A stretch of DNA of 32,067 nt from an uncultured cyanobacterium (GTDB lineage: Bacteria > Cyanobacteriota > Cyanobacteriia > CACIAM-69d). A model generated the notes under the pieces. That model saw nothing but the letters and a program-made list of their open reading frames with translations, was not told the DNA's origin and did not search any database. The position numbers were made by a program, and so were the translations under genes. The DNA is taken from NCBI GenBank assembly GCA_937883785.1, contig CALGDE010000011.1, positions 1 through 32,067 of the forward strand, given 5' to 3'. Position 1 is the stretch's first letter; every line of letters begins with the position of its first letter. Below, one piece after another: positions 8,522-11,108 of the stretch.

Positions 8522-9514
8522 AGGTCTAACGTAACTCCCTCAACTTAATTGCGTCGGCTTAAGCTTGCTTTCCAGCAAACTTTATAGGCGTCAAGTGTTG
8601 AATTATCCTTCAGCACCGACTCCTATTGTCGAACTAATAACTAATTTTGAAATGTCTAATGGAACATTTCTTTCTGCAGCCAACCTGAACGTCTTTATCG
8701 ACTTAAGGTGTGGCGAAAGAAAGGGAGTGCAGGGAAGTTAGCGACATTTCAATAATACAAAATCAATGGAAACAACTGGAACTAACTCAGCAGTTTGCCA
8801 AAGGTTTTAATTTAAAACAACGCCCAAAACAAAATACGACACAAATTATAGTTTCTTTCTATAAATGTTGCTAAAAATTTCAATATTTTAGAAAGCGAAA
8901 CATTTTAGATCCACTGCTACATACATTTGTGAATTGCCGTCGAGCAATAAATTTAATTCTCTATTTATACTCTTTTTCCTGGTTTGAAGCTCTTAGCAAC
9001 TGGCGGGTATTCGACCAGTCAAAGAGTGTTTGTGTCCAACAGTCTTTGGCAAGGTCCCCGTAAATCAGACAAAAACTTGTGGAGAACTGAGATCTGGCTC
9101 TAACTGTCACATTGGATCTACATAAATTAAATCTATGTAAAGTGGATCTATATGAAGCGAGATAGGGGTGATCAGGTACTGGGCAGCCAGCCATACAAGG
9201 TTTTTAGGGCAACAAATACCGAGGTTAAACCTTCTGCTGCTATTGGGTTTGAGTTTGAGGCAATGGCAGCGTCACCAGCATTAGAAATATGGGATATGTA
9301 CATGGGGTTAATGCGAAATTTTCACGGCGACAGGTGTAAACTCCTTCCCTCCCTACCAGCAAGGGGTACAACCTTCGGGTTGCTTATTTAGGGCGATCGC
9401 GAATTCCTTTTATGCATCTTATGCATCAAGTTTTTGTACAAATAATCAATGAAATAAATTGATTACGCGTCCTAAAAGGCTACAGAATAGAACTAAGAAT
9501 TTCCTGTGTGGTCT
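8522..9514. other. Gene-poor AT-rich interval
   Basis: About 1 kb without a convincing gene. Short frames on both strands lack coding character. Visible structures: GAAATGT/ACATTTC inverted repeat (8649-8670), GTTTTAA-T-TTAAAAC (8804-8818), and a direct repeat TGGATCTACATA (9113) / TGGATCTATATG (9143) around a TACATA/TATGTA inverted repeat. A UUCG-tetraloop hairpin lies at 9369-9382. One HIP1 site near 9393; none before it. Confidence 0.5.
9369..9382. other. UUCG tetraloop hairpin
   Basis: CAACC-TTCG-GGTTG, a short stem closed by the very stable UUCG loop, followed on + by CTTATTT. It may be the end of an unrecognised transcript, or folded RNA in the leader of the downstream gene at 9515. 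Confidence 0.35.
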
Positions 9515-10129
9515 ATGAATAGCGATCGCCCCTACACCACTCAAGAACTTGTCAAAATCTTGGAGGCGGAGCACCTTGCATGCATAAAAGGGCAACGCCT
9601 GGATTTAAACGCCACCGTATCCGGCAACCCTCTCGTAGACCGCATCATTAACCCAGAGGGAGCCCAGCGCTTCTCCGCATATCAAGGATTTCGACGCACC
9701 GTGCATGACTACCAACGTCGTGCCCAAATTTCTGGATTGGTGTGGCAAACAGTCAACCTGCACCAGGAGCAGCTCACTTTCCCTAGGCTGCACGAGCACT
9801 TAATTGCTCTTCCTCAAGATATTCAGACACTTCATGAATATTTCCAGCCGGTCTACCAGTTCTGGAGCAGTACAACCATCCACATGGAGCTATATCTAGA
9901 ACATGCCCAAGGTCGCGACTATCAATCAATTGACTCTGCTGAAGTTCAATATCTGGCGCGAGGAAAACAGTGGGCTAGTTTAAAAAAGCATGAACGGGAT
10001 AATTTCCTGGAAATTGTTTTACAGCTAGGCTGGGGTGACCCAGCACTAGCCAAAGATCGACGGGGCTGGCCCGATTCAGGACAGGATTATATCCATGCTG
10101 TTCGCCCAGGGTGTCAGCCTATAGCTTAA
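9515..10129 (+). CDS. Conserved-looking cyanobacterial hypothetical protein
   Basis: 204 residues from ATG 9515 (an in-frame GTG at 9506 would add three). The sequence begins YTTQELVKILEAEHLACIKG and contains AYQGFRRTVHDYQRR, SGLVWQTV and, late, LEIVLQLGWGDP. These resemble a family of unknown function I remember from filamentous cyanobacteria, but I cannot name it. Soluble, with no signal, TM or catalytic motif evident. HIP1 appears right after the start codon. It stands alone between two gene-poor intervals; a strong inverted repeat 82 bp after the stop probably bounds the transcript. Confidence 0.75.
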   Translation: MNSDRPYTTQELVKILEAEHLACIKGQRLDLNATVSGNPLVDRIINPEGAQRFSAYQGFRRTVHDYQRRAQISGLVWQTVNLHQEQLTFPRLHEHLIALPQDIQTLHEYFQPVYQFWSSTTIHMELYLEHAQGRDYQSIDSAEVQYLARGKQWASLKKHERDNFLEIVLQLGWGDPALAKDRRGWPDSGQDYIHAVRPGCQPIA

Positions 10130-10210
10130 ACCTACTGCTAGCTGGTTCAACGATCATCACTGAACCTTCCAAGTCAGCTGCTACGAGGGTTGTGCCCTTT
10201 CGGAAAGGCT

Positions 10211-10250
10211 GTGTGAGTCATTGACCCTTATCTGGGTCAATGACTCACAC
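10211..10250. terminator. Perfect 17-bp inverted repeat
   Basis: GTGTGAGTCATTGACCC (10211-10227) and its exact complement (10234-10250) around a 6-nt loop. It is the longest perfect hairpin I found in the window. It lies 82 bp after the stop of the preceding gene, without a U-tract, so it may be a terminator/stabiliser or a palindromic binding site. Confidence 0.5.
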
Positions 10251-10371
10251 GAGCAGCTATTTGTTATCCCAGCTTGCCATATCAACTTACCGCATCAGCT
10301 ATTCGTTGGAAGCTGCGCAAACCTGATTCACCAACTAATTTTAATATTTTCAAGTACTTTTCTTCTGATGA

Positions 10372-10401
10372 TTTCTATTCATAGAACACTTTGAATAGAA
10401 A
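10372..10401. terminator. Perfect 10-bp inverted repeat
   Basis: TTTCTATTCA (10372-10381) and TGAATAGAAA (10392-10401) with a 10-nt loop. It begins 28 nt beyond the stop of the minus-strand micro-ORF at 10430-10525 and could end that transcript, though no U-run follows. Confidence 0.35.
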
Positions 10402-10429
10402 CATTTCAAAGAAAGTAATTTTGATGGTT

Positions 10430-10525
10430 TCACCCCCCAGCGGCAAAAATTCCCATCACAACGGCGGAAAGCAAAAGTCCGGGGCTTAAAAGTAGAACAA
10501 GGGTGCCAAATTCGTGCAGTTCCAT
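10430..10525 (-). CDS. Probable 31-residue single-span membrane peptide
   Basis: ATG 10525 to TGA 10430. The product is MELHEFGTLVLLLSPG then LLLSAVVMGIFAAGG: a short charged N-terminus (two Glu, His) and one hydrophobic helix to the C-terminus. Size and layout are like the tiny one-helix subunits of cyanobacterial photosynthetic and NDH complexes, but it does not match PetG, PetL, PetM, PetN, PsaI, PsaM, PsbM, PsbN, PsbX or Ycf12 as I remember them. Codons are GC-richer than the flanking DNA. No Shine-Dalgarno is seen; many cyanobacterial small genes lack one. A hairpin follows. Function unknown. Confidence 0.45.
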   Translation of the reverse strand: MELHEFGTLVLLLSPGLLLSAVVMGIFAAGG

Positions 10526-11108
10526 ATTTATTTTTGAGTTTTGATATTTACATTTCAAAGCTCAAGCTCAGCGCATGGTGAGTCCAGTCAATATTGCTCG
10601 TTAGCTTCGAATATTGCGATCCTAGCACGGCTTTTTTGGAGCCTTTCCGGGGCTTCTCCGGGGCTTTTGAAAGCGGCAGGTAAGGGACTGTGTTGATGTC
10701 CGTTGAGTTTCTAGTGTTGATGGTGAGGTTCAAGCCGTTGCGCCTCAATTACAGGCTTAGTTTGTGCCTTCCTTCTAAAGATTTCTGGAAGCCTGTAGAA
10801 AGGATTTAGAAAGTGACCGTGGCATTGTTTTTTAGAGTTCAATTTTGGAGAGGGCGTATAGGTTGCTGCCAACAAATTCTTATAGAATGAATGCAGACGT
10901 ATTGTGTCGGCTCCCTCGGAATAACGCTTCGTGGTAGTTTTTGTGGTGATACAAAGAACAAAGTGTGTATCCATTAAGACATGGTAAGCCTCATAAATCT
11001 GAGCCCACCATTGGACAGCGCTTAAGCTGTCATAGGGATATGGATTTTGGGTAAATGCTGACTCTCAATGGAGTTAGATGGCCTTAGCTTCAACGTTGTG
11101 CGAAAACA
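10526..11108. other. Interval without a convincing gene
   Basis: Overlapping minus-strand frames are open here but their products have no recognisable domain or coding-like composition. A G/C-rich patch near 10640-10670 repeats CCGGGGCTT twice 12 bp apart. GACAGC/GCTGTC (about 11015-11032) can form a small hairpin in the leader of the TPR gene. No HIP1 site. Confidence 0.45.

Follow-up and report, generated by a model that had tools for sequence, protein, structure and literature searches.

The window, the whole stretch of 32,067 nucleotides of DNA analysed here, comes from an uncultured cyanobacterium and carries a very small gene on its minus strand, with candidate elements on either side:

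10430..10525, minus strand: norf4 coding sequence, 31 amino acids (ATG at 10525-10523, TGA at 10432-10430), from translation, homology and codon pattern
10619..10624, minus strand: putative -10 element TAGGAT in the block AAAAAAGCCGTGCTAGGATC, common to a genome of the same genus, about 100 nt ahead of the ATG
10371..10402, minus strand: downstream hairpin (arms 10371-10380 and 10393-10402) of nine Watson-Crick pairs and one G-U pair

Translation of 10430-10525 on the minus strand gives the peptide MELHEFGTLVLLLSPGLLLSAVVMGIFAAGG, 31 residues followed by a stop. AlphaFold2 models the peptide alone as a single helix, H3-30, with a mean pLDDT of 94.9, and the highest 19-residue Kyte-Doolittle mean is 2.43, with one transmembrane region. 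The N-terminus is acidic, with Glu2 and Glu5. The first-pass annotation had proposed a 31-residue, one-helix membrane peptide with an acidic N-terminus in an otherwise empty interval. The peptide is borne out by the model and the hydropathy and, as described below, by homologues and purifying selection; the interval is empty insofar as 10130-11108 contains no open reading frame of 100 amino acids. The source genome (4.84 Mb) holds one copy of the gene and gave no other match. No Shine-Dalgarno-like word was found ahead of the ATG in the window, and such a word is present at 62 of the 202 loci collected below.

The block containing TAGGAT is common to the window and to G293, the only genome of the same genus compared, and could be the norf4 promoter. 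The word GCTAGGATC also occurs 53 nt ahead of the ATG in another genome of the family (G135, locus L039), and it is absent at three further loci of this family, those of the g2 genomes (L031, L032 and L259). The hairpin downstream had been described earlier as a perfect 10-bp structure. It does exist, and is more stable than shuffled sequences (z -4.1), but one of its ten pairs is G-U and it is not conserved: in G293, where the peptide is 97% identical, a gap of 15 nt takes out one arm. It was consequently rejected as part of the conserved feature and, as G293 does without it, is probably no part of Norf4 function. No terminator-like site was called there. Between two converging genes, at 10211-10250, lies a stronger inverted repeat, perfect over 17 bp around a loop of 6 nt (z -7.7 when folded as RNA); it might terminate transcription in both directions, but no terminator was called at this position either. 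The plus-strand gene at 9506-10129 codes for a protein of 207 amino acids with no Pfam match, and homologues stand in the same converging position in two family members (L031 and L032).

The peptide is not new. Norf4 of Synechocystis 6803 was named by Baumgartner et al. (BMC Microbiol 2016; PMC5126843), and the available portion of that paper describes a protein of 31 amino acids with one transmembrane region, detected as a FLAG fusion and of unknown function. Its transcript overlaps gap1 on the opposite strand and is co-regulated with it, and expression changes on nitrogen removal. Both published norf4 probe primers match a locus of Synechocystis salina (L181) without mismatch, at the two ends of a 31-amino acid gene, and the neighbour of this gene on the opposite strand is gap1, coding for glyceraldehyde-3-phosphate dehydrogenase. 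The L181 peptide aligns with that of the window without gaps. On the exact primer match, the gap1 neighbour, the same length and the single transmembrane region, the window peptide can be identified by sequence as an orthologue of Norf4. Neither Pfam, NCBIfam nor PHROG gave a credible match for 59 members of the family (weak, scattered hits) or any match for the window peptide, and none of the PDB sequences was a credible match; PDB 8iey_A (E 0.35 over 17 residues) was taken as a chance hit. The remark that the peptide resembles one-helix photosynthetic subunits and matches none agrees with the Pfam, NCBIfam and PDB results. In the open-licence literature on cyanobacteria, Norf4 was found in PMC5126843 alone.

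The tBLASTn search proposed in the first-pass annotation was run against 292 genomes of the phylum. Matches, all at E 0.022 or better, were obtained in 124 of 139 genomes of Cyanobacteriia, including all six of the window's family, and convincing matches in none of the 153 genomes of other classes (ten partial ones at E 0.11 to 0.98); the division into 139 and 153 assumes that the 138 unlisted misses belong to other classes, which is what a list ordered by kinship would imply. A profile search of a more even draw of 388 genomes of the class, at least 95% complete, found norf4 in 277 and left 111 misses, some of which may be false, as only 20 candidates were scored in some large genomes. Every match in the genome table had E 2.7e-10 or better, and since the limit was 0.01, presence looks two-valued. 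The 111 genomes without a match make Norf4 an optional protein; it cannot be a subunit that a universal complex requires. The misses presumably include Thermosynechococcus, Gloeobacter and Gloeomargarita. The 15 genomes of the class that lacked a tBLASTn match were also searched by profile for hidden or frame-shifted copies, which gave, at best, partial matches with E values no better than 0.2. In G051, a genome without norf4, the gene next after norf4 in G233, of the same genus, likewise has no match at E 1e-20; this speaks for loss of the entire stretch and not for decay.

A degenerate DNA pattern run over the genome collection matched at least 120 stretches, all from records with cyanobacterial titles among the matches listed; at least 45 of those listed are from Prochlorococcus. 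The family f19, which matched by tBLASTn in 35 of 35 genomes, is taken as the picocyanobacteria, and has peptides identical to those of named records (L158 and L040). The gene is therefore present in Prochlorococcus and marine Synechococcus, contrary to PMC5126843, where, in the text available, homologues are reported to be lacking in the alpha-cyanobacteria. Norf4 is among the shortest conserved cyanobacterial proteins, and it occurs in Prochlorococcus, yet none of the family libraries searched has an entry for it.

In all, 202 loci were compared (61 from the first search, 18 from a later one and 123 from pattern scans, with some species represented twice). A stop codon directly follows residue 31, with none inside, at all 202; the stop distance is built into the pattern for 123 of them, and the other 79 are free of this constraint. 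The prospect of missing homologues or a broken frame in relatives, raised in the earlier annotation as grounds for doubt, was thus not what the genomes showed. The start site common to the family is TTG in one locus (L053). Seven residues, Leu9, Leu13, Pro15, Leu19, Ser20, Gly30 and Gly31, are invariant in an alignment of 59 rows. Between the window and G293 pS is 0.479 and pN 0.038, and between L031 and L259, of the same family as the window, the values are 0.587 and 0.015. Over 1707 pairs with pS of 0.2-0.6, pN/pS has a median of 0.31 and reaches 0.97 at most; these pairs take in the loci selected by pattern as well as diverged comparisons, and they form the weaker test. Of the differences, 32%, 15% and 53% fall on the first, second and third codon positions. 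The gene is under purifying selection and is conserved as a protein. The homology and the codon pattern exclude a chance open reading frame, and Norf4 is a real gene for a strongly conserved cyanobacterial membrane protein.

The conservation has a direction around the helix. In the 73 distinct peptides that were not chosen by pattern, it repeats with a period of 98-99 degrees (p 0.011-0.017 against shuffles, for three choices of segment). The near-unchanging face is formed by Leu9, Leu13, Gly16, Ser20 and Phe27, together with Pro15, Leu19, Ala28 and the terminal Gly-Gly, and none of the 73 peptides has a charged residue at positions 9-24. The acidic N-terminus noticed in the window is a family trait: Asp or Glu occurs within residues 2-8 in 71 of the 73, at residue 5 in 62, and the N-terminus is basic in one. 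The C-terminal end carries Lys or Arg in 21 of the 73 and Asp or Glu in three. This distribution of charge suggests that the C-terminus is cytoplasmic. Norf4 would then be a single-pass peptide with a helix from residue 3 to 30, its N-terminus on the outer or lumenal side and its Gly-Gly end in the cytoplasm. With this conserved face the peptide may dock on a membrane partner that is itself conserved, in the manner of other one-helix accessory subunits of thylakoid complexes. Docking is the most likely use of the helix because one face is almost unchanging. The signal for a single face is modest, however; helices rich in leucine resemble one another, and docking is therefore a generic reading.

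The gene also occurs in viruses. Two DNA patterns found it in the same three uncultured viral contigs:

L229, 1883-1978: phage-borne norf4, found by DNA patterns
L230, 1637-1732: phage-borne norf4, found by DNA patterns
L231, 868-963: phage-borne norf4, found by DNA patterns

The first two contigs have different metagenome numbers, identical norf4 DNA and flanking open reading frames in common. The L229 contig codes for a ribonucleotide reductase 69-71% identical to those of Synechococcus phages S-CRES1-3 and S-CBS2, as well as a portal protein and a dCTP deaminase. The copy in L231 is different, and its contig carries a terminase and a structural protein that shares 51% identity with one of Synechococcus phage S-EIVl. 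The contigs, from uncultured cyanophages, thus represent two lineages that carry norf4. In both, the last 14 nt of the upstream reading frame overlap the start of norf4, and the phage peptides are identical to the host copies compared at 24 of 31 positions at most. A fourth viral contig (L280), matched by a looser pattern, has in-frame stops and was set aside as a chance match. Among isolate cyanophages, the profile search gave a credible copy in none of ten records, with one partial match at E 0.03; searches of isolate phages by protein, by DNA and by neighbouring protein gave no copy, the protein search masking low-complexity sequence and saying little by itself. The copies in cyanophage contigs suggest an effect on host energy metabolism during infection.

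The gene neighbourhood is variable. Within 2.5 kb of norf4 at 61 loci we found DUF3082 (13 loci), DUF760 (13), ScpB (10), Methyltransf_28 (8), an NAD-binding oxidoreductase (8), an ABA4-like gene (6) and a gene read by eye as pdhB (11); the Pfam names come from one representative each, and secD/secF and ndhH were, like pdhB, read by eye. A conserved operon was rejected as a clue to function, with no single partner among the 61 loci and neighbours that vary by lineage. The ABA4-like gene adjoins norf4 in L036, L053 and L066 and lies about 1.2-1.5 kb off in L080, L083 and L084, in contexts otherwise different, and this is possibly an old linkage.

The variable context, together with the absence from many genomes, could also be expected of a protein that is not a stable subunit. 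Norf4 might regulate or chaperone the turnover or insertion of membrane proteins (Sec, FtsH, YidC) or act in membrane stress, in which case the copies in phages would serve to adjust the membranes of the host during infection. Phage carriage and the change of expression on nitrogen removal are in line with this, as are the genes read as secD/secF near norf4 at 14 of the 61 loci (cluster C0). However, seven invariant residues and a fixed length exceed what a loose regulator usually needs. We regard this explanation as the most serious rival to docking on a stable complex, although a minority one.

A second rival would make Norf4 an overlooked small subunit of photosystem I or II. Its size is like that of PsbT, PsaM, PetL and PetN (31, 31, 32 and 29 amino acids, as given in the accessible text of PMC5126843), and its matches lie in Cyanobacteriia, with none convincing in the 153 genomes of other classes. 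Three genomes of genus g45, two of them from known diatom endosymbionts, speak against this. The two, G147 (2,794,318 bp) and G183 (3,020,309 bp), agree exactly in size with the spheroid-body genomes of Epithemia turgida and Rhopalodia gibberula in Table 1 of PMC5638926, as does contig G143:C3 with Cyanothece PCC 8801. The third, G268, is likewise without photosystems. No psaA/B is left in G147, and what remains of it in G183 and G268 is fragmented, mostly with stops; psbA/D have no match in G183 and leave only fragments in G147 and G268. Nevertheless norf4 is intact in all three, with 31 amino acids, and pN remains well below pS: 0.030 against 0.263 between G147 and G183, and 0.015 against 0.662 between G268 and PCC 8801. 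Cytochrome f is retained as an open frame of 338 amino acids in each of the three. Conversely, all 15 genomes of the class without a tBLASTn match to norf4 have psaA/B matches. In a separate case (G280:C5:11966-14114, family f18) a psaA/B-type gene is split into two parts and contains an internal stop, either an assembly error or a real break.

Atelocyanobacterium is, we assume, the organism called UCYN-A. The gene is reported from Atelocyanobacterium in the available text of PMC5126843, and UCYN-A has lost photosystem II and kept photosystem I according to the portion of PMC11070190 at hand. The same source states that diatom symbionts of the above kind no longer have the photosystems but retain their thylakoids and the whole of respiratory electron transport. 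As norf4 persists after the loss of both photosystems, with pN well below pS, Norf4 is probably not a part of either, and the photosystem role suggested by its resemblance to photosynthetic subunits is not supported. Together with the lack of a credible match to a known subunit in Pfam, NCBIfam or PDB, this makes a missed photosystem subunit, kept in non-photosynthetic symbionts only by delay, improbable.

It was suggested in 2016 for Synechocystis under nitrogen stress that the transcript acts as an antisense RNA on gap1; the peptide would then be the secondary product of a dual-function transcript. The overlap and co-regulation of the two transcripts (PMC5126843, in the text available) speak for this, and in two members of the window's family a gap gene lies about 0.9 kb downstream of norf4 and converges with it (L031 5253-6254 and L032 4708-5715), which recalls the Synechocystis arrangement. 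Nevertheless a gap match was found at only 6 of 199 loci, adjoining norf4 in two (L181 and L273) and farther off in L088 and L170, and there is no gap gene in the 32-kb window. What is conserved is the protein, and the family as a whole would be left unexplained. The antisense role could still hold in Synechocystis; it is very unlikely as a general explanation. A hydrophobic peptide toxin or a leader peptide would be equally short, at 31 amino acids, and is just as implausible in view of the single match in the source genome, the purifying selection, a C-terminus conserved to its final residue, the lack of a constant neighbour and the FLAG-tagged form expressed in Synechocystis (PMC5126843, accessible text).

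We therefore favour, with some reserve, an accessory helix that docks by one face on a complex other than the photosystems, most likely one of the respiratory or plastoquinone chain. Survival in symbionts without photosystems narrows the search for a partner to membranes of this kind. The partner may be a respiratory or plastoquinone complex that these endosymbionts kept. NDH-1, cytochrome b6f or an oxidase lead the choice, because Norf4 outlives the photosystems and stays with respiratory membranes. NDH-1 would be our first, tentative choice; cytochrome b6f comes second with a lower likelihood, and then a terminal oxidase, ATP synthase or a membrane-biogenesis factor. The preference for NDH-1 comes from weak hints. 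A Methyltransf_28 gene lies directly upstream of norf4 at eight of the 61 loci, and in four of these a gene read as ndhH is found farther upstream. The Methyltransf_28 family serves the assembly of complex I in mitochondria. This hint stems from one group only, because gene neighbours differ between lineages. In addition, cyanophages are reported, in the part of PMC10452541 available, to carry ndhI, ndhD and ndhP.

The docking reading can be extended. Norf4 might be an unrecognised one-helix accessory subunit of the respiratory and cyclic electron-transport machinery (NDH-1 or b6f) that is independent of the photosystems and predates the picocyanobacterial split. It would be missing from particular lineages, presumably including Thermosynechococcus, from which the solved structures of cyanobacterial NDH-1 come, and for this reason would have stayed out of sight in them; in phages it would be an uncatalogued auxiliary gene. 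We consider this combination speculative, and less probable than docking as such. The presence in picocyanobacteria, the retention without photosystems and the copies in cyanophage contigs are added here; neither picocyanobacterial and phage copies nor retention without photosystems beyond Atelocyanobacterium were found in the open-licence literature.

It is useful to compare Norf4 with the known one-helix proteins. NdhP and NdhQ are one-helix subunits of thylakoid complexes, and the one-helix set spans about 29-45 amino acids. PsbT, PsaM, PetL and PetN share with Norf4 the single hydrophobic helix and, by the lengths quoted above from PMC5126843, almost the same size. However, Norf4 differs from the one-helix thylakoid subunits in having no credible sequence match in Pfam, NCBIfam or PDB, in its patchy distribution and in being kept without photosystems. 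SliP4/HliR1, from the same 2016 study, is also a small one-helix protein that acts on electron-transport complexes; it has 37 amino acids and, according to the portion of PMC12850537 available, helps NDH-1 to associate with the photosystems. The closest counterpart is the Synechocystis Norf4 of PMC5126843 itself, which has the same 31 amino acids and single transmembrane region and whose primers match a homologue of the window's gene exactly. The two differ in that gap1 stands beside the Synechocystis gene, whereas the window has no gap gene, and the accounts of the family differ in that alpha-cyanobacterial homologues, not reported in that paper, were found here.
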